Of a stretch of DNA of 64,000 bases, positions 22,575 to 59,952 are shown piece by piece. Position 1 is the first letter of the stretch. Each line of letters opens with the position of its first letter. The notes below the pieces were generated by a model. It was given only the letters and a program-made list of their open reading frames with translations. It ran no database searches and was not told the origin of the DNA. The position numbers and the translations under genes were made by a program. Source of the DNA: Bdellovibrio bacteriovorus str. Tiberius (lineage in GTDB: Bacteria; Bdellovibrionota; Bdellovibrionia; Bdellovibrionales; Bdellovibrionaceae); NCBI RefSeq assembly GCF_000317895.1, contig NC_019567.1:2976001-3040000 (forward strand), written 5' to 3'.

Positions 22575-23042
22575 TTATCGGCCCGCCTTAGCTGCCAATG
22601 AATCCATGGGCAAAGTCGCATTTTGCCGAGCCTGCTCATCTTGTTCCCGCAAGAATGCGGCACGATCCAGAGGCTCACCGTCAGTTCCCACAAAATCCTG
22701 TTCCGTCACGGCAAATTGCTCTTTCCAGTCAGTGCCCATTTCTCTTTGCAGGATCTCTTCACTGCTCATGGGACCTTCATCATTACCCGCCGCCGCTTCA
22801 GCGGCAAAGCGACGGGACTCTTCGCAATCGTGACCCGGCTCATGTTTATGATCGTGCCTCGGGCGGCTTTCAGAAGCAAAGCTTGCAAATTCCGTCATGG
22901 TTTCAGGCTCTTCAACCTGAGATTCCGCGGCAAAGGATTTGGTGGACTCAGCAGCCTTGGGTTCTTGCCCTGTCTGCAAAGGGCTGCACCAAAGCCAGCC
23001 CACCACAACCAATCCTGCAACAATCATCAGCTTAGAACGCAT
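22575..23042 (-). CDS. exported acidic protein paired with the metalloprotease
   Basis: 155 residues. A hydrophobic N-terminus (residues 5-20) acts as signal or anchor; the rest is polar, Ala/Glu-rich, with a His cluster (RHDHKHEPGHD) that could bind metal. Its start overlaps the end of the upstream metalloprotease gene by 11 bp, so the two are translationally coupled. It may be a chaperone, inhibitor or metal-loading partner of the protease, which is inference. No family recognised. Confidence 0.65.
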   Translation of the reverse strand: MRSKLMIVAGLVVVGWLWCSPLQTGQEPKAAESTKSFAAESQVEEPETMTEFASFASESRPRHDHKHEPGHDCEESRRFAAEAAAGNDEGPMSSEEILQREMGTDWKEQFAVTEQDFVGTDGEPLDRAAFLREQDEQARQNATLPMDSLAAKAGR

Positions 23043-24090
23043 AAGTCACCTTCACACCACCAACCTGTTTCAGATAATTCAACAAAGTGGAGCGGCCGTC
23101 ATTCAAGTTAAAGAAGTTATCTGTACAAAGGGTCTTCTGGTTTTTACCGCAATGATCCAGTCCCATGTTGTGTCCCAGCTCATGCAAGTAGATCTTGGCA
23201 GTGTTGTCGTAAGCCGAAGCTGTTGCATATTTAGCGGTGCTGGACCAGTCGTTGTACCTTGAGCGCATGGCAAAGTGCGGACGATAGTTCTTGCCCACCC
23301 AAGACAATCCGGAAGAACTTGTCGTACCCGGACCCGACACCACCGTCTGAATCTTGCTGCCACCCGAACCGCTTTGCGCTCTTTTCAGATGCGGCAACTG
23401 TGATTTGTCCTTGTAAAGTGAAGTTGAACGAATAGTCGAACGGGATTTCAAATCAAATCCCACGATATTCCCCAACACCTTCGCCGCGCGAGCCAGAACT
23501 TCACGGGAATAGAAGAATTTCTTCCATGCAGTATTGCCATTTCCGGCGTCATCGAAAGTCACAACCATATCAGTGCGAATACGCAGGATTTTGTCTGCAT
23601 CCAACAAAGCATACACACGGTTGCGATCCGGCACATTGCCGCCGATGGCTTCCAAGTGTTCGAAGAACCGACGACGCGCCTCTTGAAGGTAATTGCTGGC
23701 AAAACTGCCTTTGGCTGTGCGCACATAGACCGTGCGACCGGCATCAGCTTCCGAGCCCTTCATCGAAAATGTCACATGCAGCTTCGAACCCAGACAGAAT
23801 GCCTTTTGCTTTTTCAACGCACAGTACATGTCATAAGTGCGGTACAAAAAGTAACCCACAGAAATATCCGCCGAATTCGCCGGAGAACCCGTGTTATAGA
23901 CAAAAGTGAATTTGTTGCCGTAAAACCAGGCTTGGTTTCCAGTCGCACGCTTTGGGGTCTTGTCCCCCAGGATCCATTCCACTTCAGCATCAATCTTTGG
24001 CAGATGCGCTCTGGTGATATCCTCTTGTTCCGTAGCCGTTGCCGCTGAACAGATAAATACTGATGCCAGAGTTACCCACAACGCTTTCAT
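23032..24090 (-). CDS. secreted metzincin-type metalloprotease
   Basis: 352 residues with signal peptide (cut near ATA-TE, about residue 20). The zinc site HELGHNMGLDH (His303, Glu304, His307, His313) is the extended metzincin motif H-E-x2-H-x2-G-x2-H, and a Met-turn-like region should follow, although the protein ends only 39 residues later. The N-terminal 180 residues have no clear domain. It probably acts outside the cell or in the prey. A GGGGG ribosome site precedes the ATG. It is co-translated with the acidic His-rich protein downstream. Confidence 0.85.
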   Translation of the reverse strand: MKALWVTLASVFICSAATATEQEDITRAHLPKIDAEVEWILGDKTPKRATGNQAWFYGNKFTFVYNTGSPANSADISVGYFLYRTYDMYCALKKQKAFCLGSKLHVTFSMKGSEADAGRTVYVRTAKGSFASNYLQEARRRFFEHLEAIGGNVPDRNRVYALLDADKILRIRTDMVVTFDDAGNGNTAWKKFFYSREVLARAAKVLGNIVGFDLKSRSTIRSTSLYKDKSQLPHLKRAQSGSGGSKIQTVVSGPGTTSSSGLSWVGKNYRPHFAMRSRYNDWSSTAKYATASAYDNTAKIYLHELGHNMGLDHCGKNQKTLCTDNFFNLNDGRSTLLNYLKQVGGVKVTYAF

Positions 24091-24436: not shown

Positions 24437-25735
24437 ATGAAACTAATGATGATACTTATCGCGACGATCATAATGGGCACAAAAGCCCAAGCCGCCGTGT
24501 GGGCTGACGTCAACCAGTGGTCTCAGGATTGGGAATCCCGATACTCGTCCTGGGTCAAGAATGAATGGAACAAATATTTTTTCTCACGCCAACTACTGCC
24601 CAACGGACAATCAAATCCCTATTACGGATTTCGCGTCGACTGCGCCGATGCCGTTTATTCGATGCGCCTGATATTCGCCTATGAAAACCGGCTGCCTTTC
24701 GTTATCAAAGATCCCACTTATTCAGGCGCAAGAATTTCAAACAAAATGAGCCGCTGGGACCGCCAACGGGAAATCGAGCGCGTGCGAAGCTTCCTGAACT
24801 ATATCCATGAAACCACCAGCACCCGTTCACTTCCCGGTGACACTTATCCGGTGGCCATCAACCGCAAAGCCATCCGTGCAGGCGGGGTCCTTGCCACCAC
24901 TGCCGTGAACCACCACTCTTGGACGATCAAAGAAATCCTGCCCATCGGAGTCCCCTATCTGGTTTACAATTCCGTCGTGGGATCACACTCCGGCTTCACC
25001 ATGCAGGAACGAAAGTCCTGGCCCAATCCCAACTGGGTCTTTGAAGGGGACTTCAGTTCTTCCAGCGGCGCGGGCTTTCGCTACTGGCGGCCGGCTTCAT
25101 ACTTAAGCAGACCGGTTTGGAAGGTCCCGGGATACAGCACTGAACAGTTCCAGATCTCTTTATCGAAGTGGACTAAAACGCTGCAGTCCCGCCTGGCCAC
25201 CCAGCAAGAGGACGACACCTCGATGATCTTGCGTCTGGTTGAAAACGTCTGTGTGGGGTTCAAAGACCGGGTGTCCTATGTTAACGAAGCTCTTTCCTAC
25301 AAACGCCAATACCCGTCTTGCATGTCCTATGAGGCTTTTGATATTTATTCTTCTCCCAGCCGGGACGAACGCATCTTTGACGACCTGATGCTGCTAAGAA
25401 GAACCTACAAAGAAATCCTTCAGCGCAACAATGGACAAAATCTGACAACAGATCAGAAGGCCGAATTGACCAAGATCTTTCCTTATATAAATCAAAGTGC
25501 CTCCAGTGAAACCCGCCAGATGCCGCAGCAAAGCATCACCGAGGACTCGGTCTGTGTTGTGAACTATCTTTCAAGTCGGACCATGGACATGGCCGAATTC
25601 AAACGCAGGCTGTTCGCGGGCTGGATTTCCAACAACCCCAACGAGCGCGGCGAATACCGCTGGGGCGTTCTGCGCGGCCCCTCGGACCATGCCCGCTACT
25701 GCCCATCCTGGGGAGGCTGGTCTCCGAACCTGTAA
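24437..25735 (+). CDS. secreted protein with papain/NlpC-like Cys-His arrangement
   Basis: 432 residues with a signal peptide (cut after QAA, about residue 20). FRVDCADAVY (Cys69) at the start of a helix and NHHSWTIKEI (His159/160) on a strand, followed by Asn-containing YLVYNSVVG, resemble the Cys-His-Asn order of papain-fold NlpC/P60 hydrolases. The C-terminal 170 residues are helical and contain several cysteines. If the fold is right, it may cut peptide or peptidoglycan bonds. No family is firmly recognised. The ribosome site is GGAG, 6 bases before the ATG. Confidence 0.62.
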   Translation: MKLMMILIATIIMGTKAQAAVWADVNQWSQDWESRYSSWVKNEWNKYFFSRQLLPNGQSNPYYGFRVDCADAVYSMRLIFAYENRLPFVIKDPTYSGARISNKMSRWDRQREIERVRSFLNYIHETTSTRSLPGDTYPVAINRKAIRAGGVLATTAVNHHSWTIKEILPIGVPYLVYNSVVGSHSGFTMQERKSWPNPNWVFEGDFSSSSGAGFRYWRPASYLSRPVWKVPGYSTEQFQISLSKWTKTLQSRLATQQEDDTSMILRLVENVCVGFKDRVSYVNEALSYKRQYPSCMSYEAFDIYSSPSRDERIFDDLMLLRRTYKEILQRNNGQNLTTDQKAELTKIFPYINQSASSETRQMPQQSITEDSVCVVNYLSSRTMDMAEFKRRLFAGWISNNPNERGEYRWGVLRGPSDHARYCPSWGGWSPNL

Positions 25736-43072: not shown

Positions 43073-43969
43073 CTATCGCATTTTTGGCATCGTGGATTTG
43101 ATCCAGTCCGCATAGTAAACAGCATTGGTGTAAACACCCACGCTGTCACACAAAGCGCTGCCACGGCTGGTAACGCCGAACAAGAAGAGCTCACCTTTGA
43201 TTTCCACATACGCTGGGCCGCCAGAATCACCAGCACAAGTGCCGGAACCTTTGGATTCATCCAGACGCACTTCTGTTTCCTGGACAGAAGAAATCGGAGC
43301 TTTGGTTTGGCGCAAAACCCCATCGCCGGACATGTCCACTTTCAGGCAGTTTTTCAGATCGTCATCACAGATGACTTCGCCATATTCCAGGGCTTCATCC
43401 AGATCTTTGACTTTTCTTGCGTCCACAGGCTCTACATCCACCTGAGAAACGCCATAACCCGCCAAGGTCACTGACAGACCACGACGCAGAATCGTGTCGT
43501 CTTTCAACATCTGAACCGGCTTGTAACCCGGAGGCAAAGCACCGTGGAACTTGATCAAAGCGATGTCGCCCCAGTCAGATTGCTTTTCTTCCTGGTCCGC
43601 TTCGTTGTAAGTGGAATGAATTTTATAGTCAGACACTGAACGAGTGTACATCTGAACGATGTCCTGCTCGCGCGCACCCATCAGTTCGTCCACATCAAGA
43701 CCGAAGACCAAACGCAACTTGCCTGGTTTCAGACCAATCACACAGTGAGCAGCCGTCAGAATGTAGTTTTCAGCGATAATGGAACCCGTGCAGATACCAT
43801 TGCTCTGCAAGTCCATGATTCCCACGATTCCAGATGCGATTTTCGCATTTTCAGCCACCAAAGTGCCGCCCATAATACCCGCGGAATCCTTGGTATCCAC
43901 CTGAGGACGATTAGAAAGTCCACAGGAAGCCAAAACAATGGCCACCAATGCCAGTAGAATACGATTCAA
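43073..43969 (-). CDS. lipoprotein trypsin-like serine protease
   Basis: 298 residues from a TTG start at 43969 with GGAGG five bases upstream. The signal peptide carries lipobox VLASC. A chymotrypsin-fold (S1) domain follows: activation-type IxGG start (IMGG), LTAAHC with the catalytic His, DIALIKF with Asp, and GDSGGP with Ser249. Cysteine pairs fit the family disulfides. It is anchored at the envelope, with an apparent propeptide of about 20 residues. Prey protein digestion is plausible. Longer upstream frames lack a signal peptide. Confidence 0.9.
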   Translation of the reverse strand: MNRILLALVAIVLASCGLSNRPQVDTKDSAGIMGGTLVAENAKIASGIVGIMDLQSNGICTGSIIAENYILTAAHCVIGLKPGKLRLVFGLDVDELMGAREQDIVQMYTRSVSDYKIHSTYNEADQEEKQSDWGDIALIKFHGALPPGYKPVQMLKDDTILRRGLSVTLAGYGVSQVDVEPVDARKVKDLDEALEYGEVICDDDLKNCLKVDMSGDGVLRQTKAPISSVQETEVRLDESKGSGTCAGDSGGPAYVEIKGELFLFGVTSRGSALCDSVGVYTNAVYYADWIKSTMPKMR

Positions 43970-44095
43970 ATGTGCCTCCCCCAAAAGAGCGGCTCTTATA
44001 TGTAGGACGTTACCAAACGGCAACACTTTTTTAAAAAAAGGCGAGGTGCCCGACATGTTCTTGAGTTCTCCCTATGAAAGAATAAAATTCATGGT

Positions 44096-45620: not shown

Positions 45621-45650
45621 AAACAAGGCTCACATAGAGCCTTGTTTTTT
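45621..45650. terminator. bidirectional terminator containing a stop codon
   Basis: AACAAGGCTC/GAGCCTTGTT stem, T-run on the plus side, A-run for the minus side. The last six codons and the stop of the 282-residue gene lie in it. Confidence 0.82.
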
Positions 45651-46478
45651 AATAGACAAACTTCCGTTGAATGACGTTGTCGCCAAAGCATCGCGTTTCA
45701 AATCCTTGCCAGAACGTTCTTTAAAGCGGACTTCCACCACACAGAAGCGAGGGACTTCGTGGGCCACCTGATTCAGAGGCATTCTAATCTTTTGATAACC
45801 GATTTCCTTCGAGCTTCTTTCATCCACCCGCTTATAAACTGTCTCGGTACGGATGAAATCAGAATACAAGTCGCCATAATTAGGACTGGAGTTCGGCTGA
45901 CGAGGACTTCCGCTTTGCCCACGATATCTCAGATCGCAGGCATACTTGATTTCCACTGAATCCAAGGCGACCGCGTAAGCACTTCCCTGCAAAGTGAAAT
46001 CCAAACCGTAAGTCCCCAATGACTGATCAGTTCCTGAAGTCGCAAAAGGCCCTTTATAGCAGTAGGTAAAACCATACTCTGCGCCCAGAATCTCGCTTCC
46101 CAGTTGCACTTCCAGACTGTTCAGCTTGCCTCCGAATAAGTTTCCGTCATCCACAAACTGCTTCCACTGCGAAGTGCTGTGAATGGCTTGAGCCGCTCCG
46201 TCTGAATGAGTGGCCACTATCTGATTTCCTATCATTTCTTTGGAATAGCACTGACAGGGACCATCCGTTGGCCCGACGCGGGTCGGATCGCAGGATTCTC
46301 CGGTGCCCAGGTTCAGACAAATCTGCTCTGTGGATGACGAAGAGCTGCGAATTTTGGCATTGCAGGCATAAAGCTCCTCTCCCGTCGTCGGATTCAATGA
46401 CGAGCCCATGATACTGCCAGTACTGGCTCCGGAACTAAGCGAAAAAAGAAACAACAGAGCAAAAACAGAGTTCTTCAT
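45630..46478 (-). CDS. secreted cysteine-rich protein, last gene of the fibre operon
   Basis: 282 residues with signal peptide (cut near GASTGS, about residue 20). Cysteines in the pattern ACNAKI, ICLNLG, SCDPT, CQCYS are followed by a beta-rich region with LGSE, CYKG and FCVVEVRFKE. The same landmarks in the same order occur in the 426-residue protein two genes upstream, so the two are diverged paralogues. The start is four bases after the previous gene ends. Unknown family; likely extracellular or outer-membrane. Confidence 0.72.
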   Translation of the reverse strand: MKNSVFALLFLFSLSSGASTGSIMGSSLNPTTGEELYACNAKIRSSSSSTEQICLNLGTGESCDPTRVGPTDGPCQCYSKEMIGNQIVATHSDGAAQAIHSTSQWKQFVDDGNLFGGKLNSLEVQLGSEILGAEYGFTYCYKGPFATSGTDQSLGTYGLDFTLQGSAYAVALDSVEIKYACDLRYRGQSGSPRQPNSSPNYGDLYSDFIRTETVYKRVDERSSKEIGYQKIRMPLNQVAHEVPRFCVVEVRFKERSGKDLKRDALATTSFNGSLSIKKQGSM

Positions 46479-46482
46479 ACTT

Positions 46483-48075
46483 CTATCTTTCGCACTTCAA
46501 AGTGGCAAAACCGCTGGTTTTATTATCATAATTTCCGCCCAGAACACCTCGTTTGGAAATGGACAGGTTCAACAGTTTCTGCGCACCGGTTTCGGGATCT
46601 TTTTCCCCGACGACAAATTCCACAACGTACTTTTGATGAAACTTCTTGTTTCCGACCTTCAAGCAGGTGGTTTTGTCATCGCAGACACGGTCATAGTACG
46701 GAGGCCATATCTGGCTCTTAATAATGCCATCCAAGCCACGAACAATCTCTCCCAGGGATACGCCCTGATTGTGTCGTACCAAAGAGCCCACTCCACCGAA
46801 GGAAGGCAAAACCCCCAGATTACTCAAAGAGGAAATATTCGGGAAAATGTCGATTCCAACCTCTGCGTCTTCTGTCGCATACATATTCAGAAGCATTTGT
46901 CTGAAACCGCTCAGGAAGATAGCATAGTCATCTGTCGGATTCTGCATTGTAACGACAACTTTATAGCGCCCCCCTTTTACCAAAGGCCCTTCTGACAGTC
47001 TGAACTTCATTCCAGGCACAAGCCCCTGCCAGTTTGGCGGCACCAAGCCGCCATCCCACCATTCATCAATCAAAGTCTGTTTGGTTTTCCCAACCTGATA
47101 AAGCTCCACCTGACCGAAGAAAGGCTGGGTATAATTCGAGGCACTGGCGCACTCGTTCCCCACACATTTTTCAGGTGCGAAGTTGGAAACCAGGAACTTC
47201 AACTGCAATTCGGAGGTGTCGGACTGTTGTTTGATCTCAATATCAGAAATATCGGATTCGACGCTATAGTCTGTGACAAATCGCGGAGTCGTGGGACCGT
47301 AGTCCTCCGTTAACTTCAAAGTTTTCGAATCTGGTGCAATATTCAAATGAAGCAGGCGACTTCCGATATGAGTCAGGTCCTGACTGTTTCCGGTATCGTC
47401 CCCGGCAATCAAAGTATTTAATTTTGCATACATATCCTGGGGTTCGATCCCCAGTTCCTGCAAATACAACGGATCAAGACATTTGCCTTTGAAAACCGGT
47501 TGGATTGCGAATTTATTTCTGCCGCGAACCTTTAAGAAGCACATATCGCCAATCAAGGTCACTGCCCCGTCTTCTTCACGACGGATTTGGCAGAATTCCT
47601 GATTTTCTTTGGCAATGATAGGTTCACCACCGACATCAACTACCCGGACGTCGAAGCATGATCTGATAAACTTGTACTGACGCAGTAGACTGGCCGTAGC
47701 CCTGTCCTGCTTAAAATCTCCCAAGACCTGGGAGTTATTGATACTGCAATTTCTTGCCGCATGATCACCAAAGATACTGGTATTAATGCCCGTGTTGGTT
47801 GTATCCCAAAACGCCGAGCCCAAGGAAATCATTAAAAAACGGCCCGCATCCTTTTCACATTTATCCACCAGGGTCGATGGAATCAGCTGTCGGCCTGTAT
47901 AATCCCCCCAGCTTTGATTCGCCGGGGAGATTTGAATCTCGATCTTTTCATCAGTATCAGCCACGCATCCGCCGGATGCGTGAACTGATTCTGCCATAGT
48001 TAAAGATACAATCAGAAGGAGCAGACGTCCCAAGATTCGTAACTCATTTTTCATAGAACCACCAATTTTAGTCAT
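46483..48075 (-). CDS. secreted protein of unknown function in the fibre operon
   Basis: 530 residues from the ATG at 48075 (AAGGA site). Signal peptide ends near VHASGG (about residue 32). Numerous cysteines (about 15) suggest a disulfide-stabilised extracytoplasmic fold with mostly beta structure. No motif recognised. It sits 25 bp after the 426-residue gene and 4 bp before the 282-residue gene. Confidence 0.72.
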   Translation of the reverse strand: MTKIGGSMKNELRILGRLLLLIVSLTMAESVHASGGCVADTDEKIEIQISPANQSWGDYTGRQLIPSTLVDKCEKDAGRFLMISLGSAFWDTTNTGINTSIFGDHAARNCSINNSQVLGDFKQDRATASLLRQYKFIRSCFDVRVVDVGGEPIIAKENQEFCQIRREEDGAVTLIGDMCFLKVRGRNKFAIQPVFKGKCLDPLYLQELGIEPQDMYAKLNTLIAGDDTGNSQDLTHIGSRLLHLNIAPDSKTLKLTEDYGPTTPRFVTDYSVESDISDIEIKQQSDTSELQLKFLVSNFAPEKCVGNECASASNYTQPFFGQVELYQVGKTKQTLIDEWWDGGLVPPNWQGLVPGMKFRLSEGPLVKGGRYKVVVTMQNPTDDYAIFLSGFRQMLLNMYATEDAEVGIDIFPNISSLSNLGVLPSFGGVGSLVRHNQGVSLGEIVRGLDGIIKSQIWPPYYDRVCDDKTTCLKVGNKKFHQKYVVEFVVGEKDPETGAQKLLNLSISKRGVLGGNYDNKTSGFATLKCER

Positions 48076-48100
48076 ATCTGTTCCTTCTGATATCAATTAA

Positions 48101-49381
48101 CTATTTGCAGTTAGGGCAGTTTCCATCAAGATCTGCCATTTCGATTTTCGTGTGAGTGCAGATGTTTGCACCGTGTTTTTGCCATTTGCGCAGTTTAGGA
48201 TAGTGACCCAGACCGTCTTTTTCCTTGAAGATGTAGCGAACTTTACAGAATTTCGCTGCTGCACCTTTGTTGTACTTATCAAGATAGATCGGAGTGTTTT
48301 TATCGATCGTCTGCACGAAGTTCGCACCGCTGATCAGATCTTTGATATCACCAGCAAGATACTTGGTGTGATTGCTTACTGGATCGTCAATGTCAGTGAT
48401 GTCGTTGTCGAACTGAGGAGTGTTGCTTCCGTTTGGATGCTCATCAGTGTCGCTGCAGTTGCCGTTTTCACAGTTTTGAGTCTGAGAAGTACAGATCAAG
48501 TGTGCTTGAACTTCAAGGTCTGCGAAGTCGCTGTAACCTTTACCGTTGTACTTGTGACCGATGTCTGTCAAAGAGGCTTCAGCGATGACTTTGTAAGCCG
48601 CTTTGTAGTGGCTGTAGTCAATCTGAGAACCGCGGTAGCAGATATCCACGAAGTATGCCGCATTGTATGTTTCACTGCCCAGATTGAAGGACAATTTATC
48701 CAATACTCTGTCGAACGCATCAACTTCACCGAATAGTGTCGCGAAGTAAGGGCTTACACCGGAAACTTTGTCAGTGTGAGGATCTTGACGGTCTTCCCAC
48801 TTAGTCCAGCTTGCGTGAACGTAGTTACCGAATTTACGACCTTCTTGAGTGGAGCACACGCAAGTGTTGCCGTTGCCGCCACCGTTACCGCCACCTGGAT
48901 TGGAACAAGTTCTGTCCTGAGAATTGAACGTGTGACCAGATGTTTTACAGGAAACATCGCAATAAACGAATTTGCCAGGACCAGCCTGATCTTTTTCGTT
49001 ACCCAAAACGCCCGGAGGTACGTTGCTTGCGTGAGTCGGAGTGCTAACCCAGTTACGACCTGCAGCCTCACAGCTGGATTTCGTATTCAGTGGTGTATTG
49101 GACCACGTAGCCAGGTTCTGGATAAACTGCGGAGTTGGCTTAGAGCCGCCTTCACAATCCAAGCCATCACACTTAGGCGTACACGCCGTGTTCGTGCCTT
49201 CATAGTAACAGATCTTTTTATCGCCATAGGTGTCGCCTTTAGTCAGCAAACCCGCATTACAGGGATAGATGCTTGGACCCGAGCTGTTCACTCGGAAGCT
49301 ATAGTTGACCTGGATGGCGTTTGCCTGCATCGCCACCAAGGTGACGGCTGTAGTAGCCATCGCTTTTAACAAACGTTTCAT
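48101..49381 (-). CDS. secreted cysteine-rich protein, paralogue of the 282-residue protein
   Basis: 426 residues: signal peptide (cut after ANA, about residue 22), an N-terminal Cys-rich part (CNAG, ICYYEG, ACTPKCDG, CVCST) with an inserted Gly/Asn-rich loop (GGGNGGGNG), a central LGSETYN...CYRG region and FCKVRYIFKEKDG near the end, then a CPNC close to the stop. The landmarks match those of the last gene of the operon. GGAG ribosome site. Function unknown; secreted. Confidence 0.75.
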   Translation of the reverse strand: MKRLLKAMATTAVTLVAMQANAIQVNYSFRVNSSGPSIYPCNAGLLTKGDTYGDKKICYYEGTNTACTPKCDGLDCEGGSKPTPQFIQNLATWSNTPLNTKSSCEAAGRNWVSTPTHASNVPPGVLGNEKDQAGPGKFVYCDVSCKTSGHTFNSQDRTCSNPGGGNGGGNGNTCVCSTQEGRKFGNYVHASWTKWEDRQDPHTDKVSGVSPYFATLFGEVDAFDRVLDKLSFNLGSETYNAAYFVDICYRGSQIDYSHYKAAYKVIAEASLTDIGHKYNGKGYSDFADLEVQAHLICTSQTQNCENGNCSDTDEHPNGSNTPQFDNDITDIDDPVSNHTKYLAGDIKDLISGANFVQTIDKNTPIYLDKYNKGAAAKFCKVRYIFKEKDGLGHYPKLRKWQKHGANICTHTKIEMADLDGNCPNCK

Positions 49382-49417
49382 GTTGTCTCCTTCCCATTTA
49401 AGGGTGTTGTTGTAGTA

Positions 49418-49433
49418 AACTGATAAATCAGTT
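49418..49433. repeat. palindrome at an operon junction
   Basis: AACTGAT-AA-ATCAGTT overlaps the stop of the 200-residue gene, in the widest spacer of the operon. It could be an RNA processing hairpin or an operator. No T-run. Confidence 0.35.
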
Positions 49434-50030
49434 CATTTTAAAAATTAAAGGTGCACTTAAAGGACGCTGACCGAAGCCTGGCTGTCGAGGCTGAACCTCG
49501 AAGGCAGAAGTCTGGCCGACATTGTTGCGACAAAGCACATAGCTCAGTGCCATCGGCTGATGAACATCATCCAGTTTCACAGCCAGCAGAGTGTTTTCGC
49601 CGGTCTCGCCACAGAAAAAGCGAAGTTCCTTGGTAAAGGCTTCTCCGCCGACGGGGCTGTAATAGTTAAAGACGCTTTTCAGATCCAGCATCACGTACTT
49701 TTCAGTCCCCAGAAAGCGAATCAGATCCTTGCGGTCGTTCACTTCTCTGGAAATGGCATAGACTCTGGAAATCTCGGTGAAAAGCTGGCGCAGTAGTGGC
49801 GATGTTGTCCCCGCACAGTTACGGCAGTAAGGCTCGGGTCTTTGGCAGGCCGTCGCGTTCTGGCAAAGGCTTTGACAATCCCCTGATGATGCCGTGTCGC
49901 AAGTGACTTTGGTCACTTTTGCATACTGCCCGCCTGGCTGTTTGGCGTAAGTGCTTTCGACCAAAAACGCGTGGGCGGAAAATGATAGAAGTAAAATCAA
50001 TGTCGCAATGGTTCCAATCAACTTTTTCAC
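49428..50030 (-). CDS. secreted small protein in the fibre operon
   Basis: 200 residues with GTG start that shares one base with the stop of the previous gene (TAGTG). Signal peptide to about residue 21, a Cys cluster (TCDTASSGDCQSLCQ, then C-x5-C-x2-C), then a beta/helical part. No family recognised. Translational coupling ties it to the 914-residue protein. Confidence 0.7.
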   Translation of the reverse strand: MKKLIGTIATLILLLSFSAHAFLVESTYAKQPGGQYAKVTKVTCDTASSGDCQSLCQNATACQRPEPYCRNCAGTTSPLLRQLFTEISRVYAISREVNDRKDLIRFLGTEKYVMLDLKSVFNYYSPVGGEAFTKELRFFCGETGENTLLAVKLDDVHQPMALSYVLCRNNVGQTSAFEVQPRQPGFGQRPLSAPLIFKMN

Positions 50031-52774
50031 TAGAAGCCCCAGAAGTTATGTCCGATGGTTTGACGACAGTCTTTGCTCATGCCGTACATGCCCCCGAACT
50101 TTTCATAAGTTTTGAACTTCTTCCCATCTTCAGAGCAGCTGTACTTCACGCGCACTTTACCGTCGCAGTAGTCGGACTGAATGATCACGGCAGAAGACGG
50201 CGTGGTGTTGCCATTGGCATCTGTCAGCTCTTCAAGCTCCAGATGCTTCACTTTGTTGCCTGTGTATCTTTCGAAGTAATCAGCGGCCTTGGCGGCGCAG
50301 ACATTCTGATAACAACCCACACCAGCAGCCAATTGGTCCACACAGTGATCCGGGATCGTGCCGTACTTTTTATAGGTCTCGACCACTCTGTTCACATCCA
50401 CTTCCTGCAGACGAGGAATATTGACCTTGTCTTTTTTGGCAGTGATGTAGCGATGAATGCTGCGGAACAGGTAAACACCCAGTTTGATCGGATTCAAAGG
50501 CAGGCCGCCTGTTGACACTGCCGCCCCCCCGGCAACACCCACAAAATTGATGGAACAACCACCGCAATAGGACTTGCTTACGTGAGGGCTGGTCTGAAGA
50601 CTGCCATTGGATTCACCAATCACCGTCCCGTTGTCGCGGATCTTACAGTAGTTCACCGAGATCCCGTTAAAGGCATAGAAGCTGAAGTCTTTGGCACTGT
50701 TCGGAGCAATAGACACCGCACACGGAGCACCCAGCAATGGACCGAAGTCCGCCAAAAGAGCCACTTCCATTTTTTCTTTCTGAATCTTAGGGTCAAATTT
50801 TACAGCCCCGTTTTTGATCATCGCGTTCAGGCTTGTGACCTTGGGTGGCTTGAAGTCCACATCTATATATAGAGGCAAAGCATTCCAGCCAAACAAAGCC
50901 GTGCTGGCCAAATCAGCCATCAGACGCTTGTTCGCACGACGGGTCTGATACCAGGGATCATATACCTTACATGCTTTCAGATCGGCGTAAGGGTTGAAAA
51001 CGTCAGGCGTAGAAACCGTCGAATTGACCGGCAGGAACGCATCCGCGTACTTAGCGACAGCATAAAGATCTACCATGGACTTAATAAGACGACGTGTGCA
51101 ATCAATCGCAGAAGCACAGATGGAGTTCCCTGGATCGCTGACACGAGTGGCATCCCACACCAGCAACGGCGCCCCAAACTTCATCGGCTGAATATCAGCA
51201 GCAATCGTCGCCGGAGGCGCCACACCCAAAAGCTCACGCGCCCACGCATGGAAGCCGCTTCTGTTCACTGTGTATCCAGCCGCATTCCAGATCTTTTCAC
51301 GTTCCAGTGAATCACAGAATGCAACCACGGTTTCACTGACTTTATCAAAGTACCGGGTGGCATCTGCCAACTGAACTTGGGAACCTTGAAACGAACGCTG
51401 CATGACATCCAGCTGTTGAACCTTATCAATGCCAGTTTTCATAAAGTCCAGACGCTGGTCCCCTGCCAGACGTGCCTCAGTACACAGGTAGTAAAGTTCA
51501 TCACGGTGCTGGTTGGAATAGGTTTTGGCAAAAGCCAGTGGTTTTACAAACTCCCCCAGTTCAACTGGAGTCATAGCGCCGGCCACGATGTTCAGGAACT
51601 GGATGGCGCTTTGCACACGATTTTTCATCGATCCGCGGGCTGTCACGTAATTCTTGCGGAAGTTCTCGACCCAGTCCGAGGCATCTTCGTAGCTGCGGGT
51701 TCCCAGGAAGTCATCATTCACATCACGGGGACCACGATTCACAACATCGTCTTCAGGACCTTTCGGAACTTCTTTGCGATGCTCGGTTTCATTGCCGTCC
51801 GGACGCGCCAGTTCGCGAATGCTGTTCATAGAAAGAGTGGCGGCATCGCACTCGGGCTTTTCAATGCTTTTACAGCCGTTGGGAATCATCATAATGGATT
51901 CTTCAAGGGCGATGGAACGGAACATCTGACCGTACTCAGGCGCCACCTGAAGCGGGATATTGGAATATCTCCAGGCAAAAGAAAGATAGATTTTTACGCT
52001 GTTCCAGAAATCGAATCCGACAGAGCCGAATTCCACAGCACGAGGAATTTTTAAATCAAGCTGGATAATGGAATTACGCGAATCCAGGGTCGCATCAGCA
52101 CTTTCACAGTCCGTGATGTACTTGTCTTTAGTGATTGCCGCCTGGGCCACAGAAAGAAGGACTGACTTGTCCACCTCTACTGAATTCAACTGCTCTTGAA
52201 GGGCCGAGAACCTTTTTACATAGAAGCAGGCCACACGATCTGTCTTTTTCATGGACATAAAGTGGGTGCCATTGAACTTATCCAGACTTTCCCAGCGCAG
52301 TCCGGCCCCTTCCGAGTTATCCCAGAGTTTGGAAAGATAGCCGTTCAACTCAGGACAATAGGTCTTGTTCTGACATTTTTCAGCAATGGCATTATAGCCG
52401 GTCAATGCCGAAGTCTTCAGATTGGTCGGAAGAAGTGGAAGCTGTCCGGCCATCAGCTTGTTCATAATCACTTTGGTAAGACGGGTTACTGCAATACGAA
52501 ACTGCTGCATGCCCTCGGCGCTCATCGCTTCAGCATTGGAGCCGATATTTTTACCAAGGGAATAAACCATCTTTCCCGCATTGTATCCATCCACCACGAT
52601 AAATGCGGACTCGGTCGGAATCTCAGAGTCTACGGCGCATTGCGCACGATTTGTAATTCTCAATTTATTCAACTGAACCTGAGATGTGGAAGTCGTTTGT
52701 GCATCGGCACCCACCGCCATCATCCAGATCACTGTCATCAACACAATTTTGCCCATAGACCCTGCATTATTCAT
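50030..52774 (-). CDS. large secreted protein of unknown function in the fibre operon
   Basis: 914 residues with signal peptide (cut near ADAQT, about residue 26). The long helical middle (about 180-600) is followed by a Cys-containing region (PHVSKSYCGGCSI, about 750) that includes a hydrophobic Gly-rich stretch (INFVGVAGGAAV), and a C-terminal domain with several cysteines. It is the largest member of the six-gene operon. Size and lack of enzyme motifs suggest a scaffold, usher-like or receptor part; this is inference. AGAGG site before the ATG. Confidence 0.72.
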   Translation of the reverse strand: MNNAGSMGKIVLMTVIWMMAVGADAQTTSTSQVQLNKLRITNRAQCAVDSEIPTESAFIVVDGYNAGKMVYSLGKNIGSNAEAMSAEGMQQFRIAVTRLTKVIMNKLMAGQLPLLPTNLKTSALTGYNAIAEKCQNKTYCPELNGYLSKLWDNSEGAGLRWESLDKFNGTHFMSMKKTDRVACFYVKRFSALQEQLNSVEVDKSVLLSVAQAAITKDKYITDCESADATLDSRNSIIQLDLKIPRAVEFGSVGFDFWNSVKIYLSFAWRYSNIPLQVAPEYGQMFRSIALEESIMMIPNGCKSIEKPECDAATLSMNSIRELARPDGNETEHRKEVPKGPEDDVVNRGPRDVNDDFLGTRSYEDASDWVENFRKNYVTARGSMKNRVQSAIQFLNIVAGAMTPVELGEFVKPLAFAKTYSNQHRDELYYLCTEARLAGDQRLDFMKTGIDKVQQLDVMQRSFQGSQVQLADATRYFDKVSETVVAFCDSLEREKIWNAAGYTVNRSGFHAWARELLGVAPPATIAADIQPMKFGAPLLVWDATRVSDPGNSICASAIDCTRRLIKSMVDLYAVAKYADAFLPVNSTVSTPDVFNPYADLKACKVYDPWYQTRRANKRLMADLASTALFGWNALPLYIDVDFKPPKVTSLNAMIKNGAVKFDPKIQKEKMEVALLADFGPLLGAPCAVSIAPNSAKDFSFYAFNGISVNYCKIRDNGTVIGESNGSLQTSPHVSKSYCGGCSINFVGVAGGAAVSTGGLPLNPIKLGVYLFRSIHRYITAKKDKVNIPRLQEVDVNRVVETYKKYGTIPDHCVDQLAAGVGCYQNVCAAKAADYFERYTGNKVKHLELEELTDANGNTTPSSAVIIQSDYCDGKVRVKYSCSEDGKKFKTYEKFGGMYGMSKDCRQTIGHNFWGF

Positions 52775-52783
52775 TTAAAACCT

Positions 52784-53317
52784 CTAATTAAGACCGGTGC
52801 CGCAAGAGCTGACTTTGTTCAACATGGTTGTATAGAACAAAACCACTGTCTGATCCGCTGGAGAGAAGTTTCTCTTCACAGAGCCATCAGAGTTCACCAT
52901 GTTGTACAGGTACGTATTTACGAAGCGATAAACTGCAGGTGTGACCAGAAGATTGGAACGGCACTTGTAGTTTTTGTAGGTCACTGTGATGTTTGCATAG
53001 CCATTGCTGTTGTTGTTATTGCCGTTGTCATAGTCGCCAATGTAGATTGTATCCCCTTCGCCGCCGTTCGCCCGACCGTAGCCAACCTGGAACTGCACAG
53101 TCCATCCGGATCCACTGCTGTCCTGCCCGACGATTTTACAAAGATTGCCTGAACAGGCGATCGCCATTTCATTCTCAATTTTCTTCTGCAGTTCTGCTTC
53201 AGAGTATTGAGGAAGTGGACGTGGATCGAATTCTCCAGTGCCATCATCAAATTCATTCGCAGTCGCCTGCATCGTTGTCGCCAACAAAACCCCTGCAAGA
53301 AGCGCCTTGAGTTTCAT
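52784..53317 (-). CDS. secreted protein, first gene of the six-gene operon
   Basis: 177 residues: signal peptide (to about residue 20), an acidic linker, a Cys pair (ACSGNLCKI), a Gly/Asn-rich stretch (NGNNNNSNGYAN) and a C-terminal part with two more cysteines. It could be a small fibre or cap subunit. AAGGGAAG ribosome site; next gene follows after 9 bp. No family recognised. Confidence 0.72.
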   Translation of the reverse strand: MKLKALLAGVLLATTMQATANEFDDGTGEFDPRPLPQYSEAELQKKIENEMAIACSGNLCKIVGQDSSGSGWTVQFQVGYGRANGGEGDTIYIGDYDNGNNNNSNGYANITVTYKNYKCRSNLLVTPAVYRFVNTYLYNMVNSDGSVKRNFSPADQTVVLFYTTMLNKVSSCGTGLN

Positions 53318-56737: not shown

Positions 56738-57352
56738 ATGAAATTGAAGGAAGACCTGAAATTCATCTTCAAACAAGGAAAGAAGATTCTGATAATGAGC
56801 TTCTTCACGTTGAATGTCGGCATCATGATTGTCGATGGACTGCCCGATCAAAGCACACTCGGTGAGCGATTCATCAAAGCCGTGCGTCGCTATCAGGCCA
56901 TGGTGATGCTTTACCAGCCCTGGGCCATGTTTGCCCCAAACCCGATGAACACCAACGCCCATATCGAAGCTGACCTGATCTTTGAAGACGGTTCAACCGG
57001 CGTCTGGAAAATGCCTCGCCCGACAATCATGCAGGGACCGCGAAAAGTGCTGACCGGAGATCGCTATCGTCTGTTCGGTCAGGAAACCCTGCTGCCGAAA
57101 GAAAATGAACTGGTTTGGTTTGATGTGTCCCGATTTATCACCCGCGAAGTGATGGAAGCTGAAACACACGGAAAAAACCGAGTTCTGAAAGAAGTTGTCT
57201 TCAAAAGATATCAAAGCCGCGTGCGACCTCCGCCAGAGGCGCCGTTGATTCCTCACGGGACTATGAGCACCAAATATGACACTGAAACCTTGTTCGTCTA
57301 TAAACCGACCTTCGAAAGGATTCGCCATGAAGCTAAAAACGATCTTCAATAA
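56738..57352 (+). CDS. QPWxMFAPNP-motif membrane protein, HTTM partner (copy 1)
   Basis: 204 residues: one N-terminal membrane helix (about residues 20-40), then an extracytoplasmic domain that opens with QPWAMFAPNP and ends IPHGTMSTKYD. The same landmarks are in the minus-strand copy. Proteins with this motif (DUF5819-like by my recollection) often adjoin HTTM genes. It overlaps the HTTM gene by 26 bp. AAGGA site. Function unknown. Confidence 0.75.
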   Translation: MKLKEDLKFIFKQGKKILIMSFFTLNVGIMIVDGLPDQSTLGERFIKAVRRYQAMVMLYQPWAMFAPNPMNTNAHIEADLIFEDGSTGVWKMPRPTIMQGPRKVLTGDRYRLFGQETLLPKENELVWFDVSRFITREVMEAETHGKNRVLKEVVFKRYQSRVRPPPEAPLIPHGTMSTKYDTETLFVYKPTFERIRHEAKNDLQ

Positions 57353-58271
57353 TTTCGAAGAATTTTTGTTCAAACCCCAGCCTGTCTATAGTGTTGCCCT
57401 GATGCGAATCGGCCTGGGTCTGATCTTATTGTTCAACTGGCTTATGCTTTATGCGGATCTGGATATCCTTTTCGGCCCCGATGGGATGGTTTCACTGCAG
57501 ACCGCTCAACAATACGGAAATCCCTTCCGCTATTCTTTATTTGATTATATGCCGAACACGTCGAAGGTGACTCACACCCTGGCCTTCATCAATCTGCTGG
57601 CCGTTCTGGCCATGACGTTTGGTGCCTGGACCCGCACCGCCATCTTTGTTGCCTTTGTGACTTTGATTTCATTTCACCACCGCAATGGCTTTGTCATGAA
57701 CAGCGCCGACTCGGTTTTAAGAAACTTTCTGTTTCTGCTGATGTTCACCCCCTGCGGCGATGCCTTCGCTATTGACCGCTGGCGTTTGCGCCTAAAAGGT
57801 CAGGCCCCTGAGGTGCCTGCAGAAAAAGCTCCTTGGGCCCTGCGCATGATCCAAATCCAATTCTGCGTTATCTATCTGGCCACGGTGATGTTCAAAATTA
57901 AAGGCGATCGGTGGGTCGACGGCACGGCCGTATATATCGCCACCCGACTGGATGACTTTGTCCGCTTTGAACTTCCACTGCTGAACAATATGATCTTTAT
58001 CAAATACCTGACCTGGTCCACGCTGCTGGTGGAATTTGCCTTGGGAACTTTGGTGTGGATCAAAGACCTTCGTTACTGGATTCTGCTGGCCGGAGTCGGA
58101 TTGCATCTGGGAATTGAGTACACCATGTCGATCCCCGTCTTTGAATGGGCGATGATTGTGGTGATGGTCAGCATGGTGGATTCACGGGATATCGAGCGCT
58201 GGATGGAAAAACTTCGCAAGTACCGCCAGCAAGCCCGCACGGCACAGACTCCCCAACCACAAACCACATAA
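57327..58271 (+). CDS. HTTM (gamma-carboxylase-like) membrane protein (copy 1)
   Basis: 314 residues with about seven membrane helices and HTTM landmarks: FKPQPVYSVALMRIGLGL at the start, HHRNGFVMNSAD and FTPCGDAFAIDRW, then QIQFCVIYLATVMFKIKGDRW. The domain is shared with vitamin K-dependent gamma-glutamyl carboxylase; bacterial members have no proven reaction. The ATG at 57327 lies inside the end of the partner gene. A close paralogue is encoded convergently. Confidence 0.85.
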   Translation: MKLKTIFNNFEEFLFKPQPVYSVALMRIGLGLILLFNWLMLYADLDILFGPDGMVSLQTAQQYGNPFRYSLFDYMPNTSKVTHTLAFINLLAVLAMTFGAWTRTAIFVAFVTLISFHHRNGFVMNSADSVLRNFLFLLMFTPCGDAFAIDRWRLRLKGQAPEVPAEKAPWALRMIQIQFCVIYLATVMFKIKGDRWVDGTAVYIATRLDDFVRFELPLLNNMIFIKYLTWSTLLVEFALGTLVWIKDLRYWILLAGVGLHLGIEYTMSIPVFEWAMIVVMVSMVDSRDIERWMEKLRKYRQQARTAQTPQPQTT

Positions 58272-58282
58272 AATCAGGACAT

Positions 58283-58313
58283 AAAAAAAGCCGCTGTTCC
58301 CAGCGGCTTTTTA
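58283..58313. terminator. bidirectional terminator between the two HTTM genes
   Basis: AAAAAAAGCCGCTG, loop TTCC, CAGCGGCTTTTT; runs on both sides. It is the symmetry centre of the inverted module pair. Confidence 0.92.
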
Positions 58314-58314
58314 T

Positions 58315-59268
58315 TTATTTGGATTTAACCAGGATCAGCGGTCTCCAGGCCAGAATGCTTGAAAACAGTCTGCCCTCTTTCGCCAGGGTCAGCCAGTCTT
58401 TCAGATCTTTTGGGTCCACCATGCAGATCATCGTGATAATCATGATCCATTCAAACATCGGGATATTCATCGAAAGCTCAATCCCCAGATGCAGTCCAAT
58501 CCCGGCCAGAATCACCCAGTACCGCAGCTCGCGAATCCAGATCAGCGTCCCCAAGGCAAACTCCACCAGCAGCGTGGACCAGGTCAGGAACTTGATCACC
58601 ACAAGACTGTTCAAAAGCCCCAGCGGCATTCGGACAAACTCATCAAGGCGTGTGGCGACATACACCGCTGTACCATCCGCCCATAAGGGCCCCTTCATCT
58701 TGAACATCACCGTGGCGATATAAATGACGCTGAATTGAATCTGCATCAACCGCAGCCCCCAGGGGGCCTTTTCCAAAGGCTCTGCCGGGGCCATCCCCTT
58801 GCGCACCTGCCACCAACGATCCAAGGACAGCCAGTCCCCACACGGAGTCAGGAACAACAAAAACAGGAAATTACGAATCACGATATCTGAACTGTTCAAA
58901 ACAAAGACGTTGCGGTTATGAAACGAGATCAGGGTGAAAAACGCCAAAGCAATCGAGGTGCGGGTGAAAACTCCGAACAACACCCCTATCACCGCCCCCA
59001 GATGAACCAAGGCAACCAATGCCGGCACACGTGGGTCTGGCGGAAGCAGATCAAACAGACTAAAACGGAACGCCCCTGCCATCTTCAAAGAGCTTTCCAA
59101 AGAGAAAATCCCCTCGACTCCCCAGAAGGTGTCCAGATGACTCCACACCATAAACCAATTAATCAGCAGCACCACCCCGAATAAAACCCGCAACAAAGCC
59201 ACGGTATGCACCGGCTGGGGCTTAAAGAAAAAATCATTCAAACCATTAGTGAGCGTTGTTAGCTTCAT
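58315..59268 (-). CDS. HTTM (gamma-carboxylase-like) membrane protein (copy 2)
   Basis: 317 residues, clear paralogue of copy 1: FFFKPQPVHTVALLRVLFG, HNRNVFVLNSSD, LTPCGDWLSLDRW, QIQFSVIYIATVMFKMKGPLW. About seven membrane helices. The ATG at 59268 overlaps the end of its partner gene by 23 bp, just as in copy 1. The DNA of the two copies is similar enough in places (for example the segment coding LTWSTLLVEFALGTL) to act as an inverted repeat. Confidence 0.85.
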   Translation of the reverse strand: MKLTTLTNGLNDFFFKPQPVHTVALLRVLFGVVLLINWFMVWSHLDTFWGVEGIFSLESSLKMAGAFRFSLFDLLPPDPRVPALVALVHLGAVIGVLFGVFTRTSIALAFFTLISFHNRNVFVLNSSDIVIRNFLFLLFLTPCGDWLSLDRWWQVRKGMAPAEPLEKAPWGLRLMQIQFSVIYIATVMFKMKGPLWADGTAVYVATRLDEFVRMPLGLLNSLVVIKFLTWSTLLVEFALGTLIWIRELRYWVILAGIGLHLGIELSMNIPMFEWIMIITMICMVDPKDLKDWLTLAKEGRLFSSILAWRPLILVKSK

Positions 59269-59821
59269 AACGAGGCCCTCCAGTCGGCTTAAAGTGGAAA
59301 ACACTTTCGCTGTTATAATCCTTGCTCATCTGACCATGAGGTATGAACACCTGGGTCGGCGGTTGAACAGTGCTGGTATGACGATAGAAATAAAGCTGTT
59401 CAAATTCACGCTTGCACCCGAACTGTTCCAGCTTAGCCACCTCGCGCGCCACATAGCGGGAAAGATCAAACCACAGCTCTGACTTTTCCATCGGCAACAG
59501 ATTGTCCTGCTGGTACTTGCGATAACGTTCACCGGCCGTGAAACGATCCCAGCCATCCAGCTGTGACGCCCGCGGGAATGTCCATTGTTCTGTCGAGCCA
59601 TCTTTGAATGTGATCGTGGCCGTTAGATACGAGTTCACTGAGGCTGGATTGGGAGCAAACATGCTCCAGGGTTGATCCAACCCAAAGAAAACCTGATACG
59701 GAGAAAGAGCCTGCAGAATGCGGTCACCGACTGCACTCCGGTCTGGCAATGCCGCCGTGACCATCATCACGATGTGACCAGTAATAAAGGCTGAAATCAG
59801 AACCTTCTTGAGTGCCGCCAT
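59246..59821 (-). CDS. QPWxMFAPNP-motif membrane protein, HTTM partner (copy 2)
   Basis: 191 residues from the ATG at 59821 (GGGGG site six bases upstream). N-terminal membrane helix, then QPWSMFAPNP, FKDGST, WFDLSRYVAREV and FIPHGQMSKDYNSE, each with a counterpart in copy 1. An exported soluble domain anchored by one helix is predicted. Overlaps the HTTM gene. Confidence 0.75.
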   Translation of the reverse strand: MAALKKVLISAFITGHIVMMVTAALPDRSAVGDRILQALSPYQVFFGLDQPWSMFAPNPASVNSYLTATITFKDGSTEQWTFPRASQLDGWDRFTAGERYRKYQQDNLLPMEKSELWFDLSRYVAREVAKLEQFGCKREFEQLYFYRHTSTVQPPTQVFIPHGQMSKDYNSESVFHFKPTGGPRYEANNAH

Positions 59822-59952
59822 GGCGAACCCCCTGTTGTTGTTGACCAACATCAGGGTTTATCCGAGCCGCCCCGCCTGACACAACAGCATTCAAGCGCAT
59901 CTAAATTAAGAATTCATCAGCTAGATTTCAGCCCTTTAAGACAAGACAAAAA

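Follow-up and report, generated by a model that had tools for sequence, protein, structure and literature searches.

The surface structures by which bdellovibrios choose and enter their prey are only partly known. In B. bacteriovorus, the MAT (mosaic adhesive trimer) proteins form single-chain trimeric fibres with phage-tail-fibre-like parts; the superfamily is one of trimeric beta-prism fibres, often with an S74 chaperone/protease domain, and 8 of 21 members lack that domain (PMC10769870). Another exported adhesion factor of the predator is Bd0875, which represents a single family of MIDAS adhesins (PMC11003981).

Here, we describe a six-gene operon, A to F, of B. bacteriovorus str. Tiberius (Table 1), contained in a window of 64,000 nucleotides at positions 2,976,001-3,040,000 of the 3,988,594-bp genome. 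Like the MAT fibres, its products would be variable exported predator proteins for diverse prey that evolve as mosaics (in MAT, mosaics of binding parts), but they are six separate Cys-rich proteins without a match to such families, and here whole genes are exchanged. A-F have no Pfam match, unlike the single adhesin family of Bd0875; this includes the S74 domain, which MAT members do not always carry. Chaperone-usher and spore-coat-U pili resemble the locus as an operon of exported proteins, with D and F as two homologous beta-sandwich members. However, the Pfam usher and periplasmic chaperone families gave no match to A-F, and a role for B as usher was dropped because its model is mostly helical, not a barrel. 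With regard to type IV or Tad pili and type II secretion, searches of Pfam and NCBIfam found no pilin, secretion ATPase or secretin family in the set, nor an usher. F-type conjugation systems make several exported, Cys-rich proteins together (TraN, TraU, TrbC and TraW), a likeness that serves as a lead only: A-F have no sequence match to TraN, TraU, TraW or TrbC in Pfam or NCBIfam, and no conjugation ATPase or pilin is among them. The "rose-like complexes" seen by tomography were not linked to A-F; they have been compared to efflux or type I systems (PMC10225642). The original prediction knew of no described system of this make-up, and indeed none of the six proteins gave a match to a described family of secretion or pilus components. 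The novelty of A-F rests on the absent family or fold match; once a function is shown, they could still turn out to belong to a familiar type of appendage or secreted assembly.

The operon had been proposed from six minus-strand reading frames with particular lengths and spacings, and ORFs were found at exactly those coordinates. The gaps are 9, -1, 46, 25 and 4 bp (A-B, B-C, C-D, D-E and E-F, respectively), and an alternative TTG start for E is possible 21 bp upstream of its ATG. At a GC content of 0.485 compared to 0.498 for the window, the base composition of the operon is not foreign. An Rfam search of the region returned no match.

Table 1. The A-F operon and its flanking features, in window coordinates.
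Feature	Start	End	Strand	Description
Acyl-CoA dehydrogenase gene	44096	45610	+	Outside the module; orthologue of HD100 Bd2924 (PDB 6SD8)
Exchangeable D-E-F block	45570	49250	-	Supported by DNA identity profile and trees
Gene F	45630	46478	-	282 aa; predicted exported; 8 Cys; paralogue of D
Gene E	46483	48075	-	530 aa from ATG; predicted exported; 12 conserved Cys; no family match
Gene D	48101	49381	-	426 aa; predicted exported; homologous to F
Gene C	49428	50030	-	200 aa; GTG start; 1-bp overlap with B; predicted exported; 8 practically invariant Cys
Gene B	50030	52774	-	914 aa; predicted exported; 22 conserved Cys
Gene A	52784	53317	-	177 aa; predicted exported; 4 invariant Cys
Intrinsic-terminator-like hairpin	53461	53492	-	Strong; 14 pairs plus T run; between Z and A
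Gene Z, collagen-like	53518	56439	-	Outside the module; 973 aa; Pfam match to collagen only

Each gene was expected to start with a signal peptide and most to encode Cys-rich proteins, and both features extend to the families. By a simple sequence rule that includes a hydrophobicity limit, 81-97% of the members of each family A-F have a Sec-signal-like N-terminus, compared to 37% of the other ORFs of the same loci, which served as the control. The N-terminus of the window's D (MKRLLKAMATTAVTLVAMQANA) falls just below the hydrophobicity limit of the rule, and the D family passes at 91%. Cysteine density in the module families is 2.4-4.6 per 100 aa, compared to 1.1 in other signal-bearing ORFs on the same loci. 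This richness is not due to chance, since the cysteines are conserved: the Cys columns are invariant in A (4/4; 36 sequences) and conserved at 95-100% in B (22/22; 21 sequences), 97-100% in C (8/8; 34 sequences) and 89-100% in E (12/12; 35 sequences). The even number of invariant cysteines in A, B, C and E points to an oxidising compartment. In the D family, the count for the mature part is exactly 11 Cys in 22 of the 43 sequences, an odd number that leads us to speculate that one Cys may link subunits; the D protein of the window has 19 Cys and an extra insert of ~100 residues.

None of A-F matched Pfam, NCBIfam, PHROGs or PADLOC above background, and the same held for profiles of A, B, D/F, E and the accessory protein G (see below) against PDB sequences. 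Members of the B family gave no match in Pfam or NCBIfam either. The absence of enzyme families from the A-F matches (Pfam, NCBIfam) agrees with the earlier reading, in which no enzyme motif had been recognised. A role in defence was dropped; A-G had no match among the PADLOC models of anti-phage defence systems. Within the set, hhalign detected homology between D and F (probability 99.9%, E 3.5e-37) and none that was convincing for any other pair. The monomer model of F (pLDDT 81.5) is a beta-sandwich that resembles carbohydrate-binding modules and adhesins through weak, generic matches, and the model of B (pLDDT 77) has a cystatin-like C-terminal domain (~823-905), likewise a generic resemblance. 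Foldseek and VIA returned no confident PDB match for either model, nor a viral one for B: the best Foldseek E values were 1.3 (B) and 1.3e-3 (F), and the best VIA Z scores, 6.5 and 7.4, both lie inside the tool's stated background range. Searches of phage and plasmid collections and of IMG/VR did not return B, so no carrier element was identified. Among open-licence full texts, we found none on the operon genes, with only the neighbour Bd2924 described.

The module is inherited as a set. Of 59 relatives, 25 carry B and, across 368 Bdellovibrionota genomes, A is present in 76 and B and E in 75 each. According to lists compared by hand, all three occur together in 73 genomes and are all absent from 290. 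The five exceptions, four of them fragmented assemblies, hold A and B without E (G100), A and E without B (G332), B only (G165), E only (G135) or a lone A (G017). The B-E co-occurrence has a Fisher p of 4e-72, a statistic that ignores shared ancestry. In almost every locus read, the module families sit together, in the order A-B-C-D-E-F-(G) in the Bdellovibrionaceae and D-E-(D2)-A-B-C in the Bacteriovoracaceae and Halobacteriovorax. A second complete copy, which includes G, lies in the Tiberius genome at ~728.7-737.2 kb. Near all-or-none inheritance and retained adjacency uphold the idea of a dedicated, co-inherited set of exported proteins. Envelope housekeeping or stress proteins that share an operon and form no joint structure would be compatible with the patchy distribution, which suits accessory roles. 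However, A, B and E are inherited all-or-none over the phylum, and linkage is retained even as location varies and order is rearranged, so we consider such an explanation quite improbable. Several Bdellovibrio species do not have the module, which is thus inessential for the genus. The lone A of G017, a genome without the operon, is divergent (52% identity; L108 8567-8962).

More broadly, one conserved B pattern was searched in ~85,000 species genomes and matched only Bdellovibrio, Bacteriovorax, Halobacteriovorax, Oligoflexia and one "Proteobacteria" metagenome-assembled genome, in a scan limited to this pattern that distant homologues outside Bdellovibrionota could escape. The "Proteobacteria" genome falls in the window's own family. 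So far, the module has been found only in Bdellovibrionota.

The original prediction tied the operon to the collagen-like gene Z, and its proposed neighbourhood check covered seven genes. The six operon genes do stay together; the fibre gene does not belong with them. It is tempting to suppose that the operon assembles or decorates the fibre, because in Tiberius, HD100, G023 and kdesi Z lies next to the operon and shares its strand. However, the terminator-like hairpin lies between Z and A, the Z C-terminal domain is found in most Bdellovibrio species, including those without the operon, and in genomes with both, the two are mostly far apart. Four relatives (G020, G017, G012 and G004) keep an empty site, at which Z comes immediately after the dehydrogenase gene with no operon between them, and no fibre gene lies alongside the second Tiberius copy. 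The adjacency is therefore local to the four strains in which it is seen, Z was dropped from the unit, and the fibre-assembly explanation is largely refuted, with hardly any probability left to it. The other flank of the empty site is the dehydrogenase gene, downstream of the operon; in HD100, the operon adjoins Bd2924.

The flanks have features of their own. The collagen-like repeats of Z vary strongly by strain, being GDKGNYGNNGDHG-type in Tiberius and forming long runs of GNN in both HD100 and kdesi (compared between the window's Z and L029 13298-16390). By contrast, Tiberius and HD100 share 98% identity over the C-terminal domain of Z. Beside Z, at 56738-59851 of the window, are two inverted, facing copies of a gene pair (~200 aa and a ~330 aa membrane protein), with identities of roughly 40% and 54-59%, compared across strains. 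Next to the dehydrogenase gene, a trypsin-like serine protease gene (43073-44056) belongs to the older gene context around the empty site.

Across 23 loci, the operon occupies about ten different gene contexts. The many contexts and the empty site fit movement as a unit, although the pattern may also stem from several ancient copies that were lost repeatedly. The site that holds a full operon in G019 is occupied in strain kdesi by B alone; this gene is intact (922 aa; L026 9149-11917 / L048) and is either a remnant or a B that acts by itself.

The distal genes also differ in history from the rest of the operon. Protein identity between Tiberius and HD100 is 94% for A, the slowest-evolving module family within the genus, and 93% for B, followed by 76% for C, 58% for D, 43% for E and 41% for F. 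DNA identity between these strains is about 52% over most of the D-E-F block, F and E included, and climbs back through D. Within the dehydrogenase gene it is about 84-94%; the flanks of the block are at about 84-90% towards that gene and at 76-89% towards A and B. Between Tiberius and kdesi, identity shows no drop over the block (about 66-85%). The B tree groups HD100 with Tiberius and G023 (support 100/100), whereas in the E, D and F trees Tiberius and G023 join kdesi. The HD100 grouping is rejected by E, D and F with p-AU values of 3e-54, 8e-9 and 7e-5, which are somewhat optimistic, as the tested group had been suggested by the identity table and long-branch warnings apply to the trees of D and F. 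This indicates that D, E and F have been swapped between strains as a block, in one direction or the other.

In many copies of the operon, a further gene, G, lies 3' of F. It encodes a separate, signal-bearing, enzyme-like protein with an invariant DCAD...GH pattern and invariant C53 and H155, and it matches no family above the cut-off, with a weak hit to DUF4846. The resemblance of this pattern to Cys-His hydrolases could make A-G a secreted complex for attack or digestion, delivered to prey or used against competitors, with G, where it occurs, acting as a papain/NlpC-like hydrolase and the D-E-F trio setting substrate specificity. The module is present in many predators, disulfide-rich proteins are suited to the extracellular space, and D-E-F variation could track variation in prey. 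However, the operon in the window and several others do not have G, A-F have no enzyme family match, and the DUF4846 match is not an assignment. The tie of G to the operon is also loose, given that a stand-alone paralogue lies in the window at 24437-25735 and the genome contains additional G-like sites. Altogether, we regard an attack complex as unlikely. The gene beside the lone G paralogue encodes a signal-bearing, zinc-metalloprotease-like protein (23032-24090; HELGHNMGLDHC).

Several points are supported directly: the genes stay linked and co-occur almost perfectly, their cysteines are conserved, D and F are homologous, the set is present or absent en bloc at many chromosomal sites, and D-E-F have been exchanged. 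From these we tentatively favor a reading in which the six genes are one movable unit, and their products most likely one extracellular or outer-surface complex with an A-B(-C) core and exchangeable D-E-F outside. Judging from their N-termini, the products would be exported by Sec; they would then fold with many disulfides and assemble into a single complex, perhaps crossing the outer membrane through the general type II system, which is a guess. It counts against this reading that the set itself includes no usher, pilin family or secretion ATPase to account for that passage. A and B, with C, would form the conserved base, and the paralogous beta-sandwiches D and F, together with E, an outward-facing, variable exterior that may contact prey, competitors or phage. 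Whole-allele exchange in exported proteins is typical for exposed recognition parts, as is a conserved core with exchangeable distal parts, and it is this resemblance that leads us to place D, E and F on the exterior.

A conserved core with variable distal parts, all of which look exported, might also belong to a periplasmic or outer-membrane apparatus that exports or assembles some other substrate, such as a surface polymer or protein, with the large, conserved B as scaffold and the small, conserved A as cofactor. We give this little credence, as A-F match no transport family, be it of ushers, ATPases or others, and no cargo gene is constant, the collagen-like Z being unlinked elsewhere. Returning to the surface complex, a bolder version in which we have somewhat less confidence is that A-F may be an undescribed extracellular machine of Bdellovibrionota, movable and made of new, disulfide-locked families, in which swaps of the D-E-F tip alter recognition or escape. 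The HD100 operon next to Bd2924 is amenable to deletion and allele-swap tests. Whatever the function proves to be, unnamed orphan exported families would gain a name, and the all-or-none inheritance, varied sites and three-gene exchange within one species point to a dedicated, selected structure.
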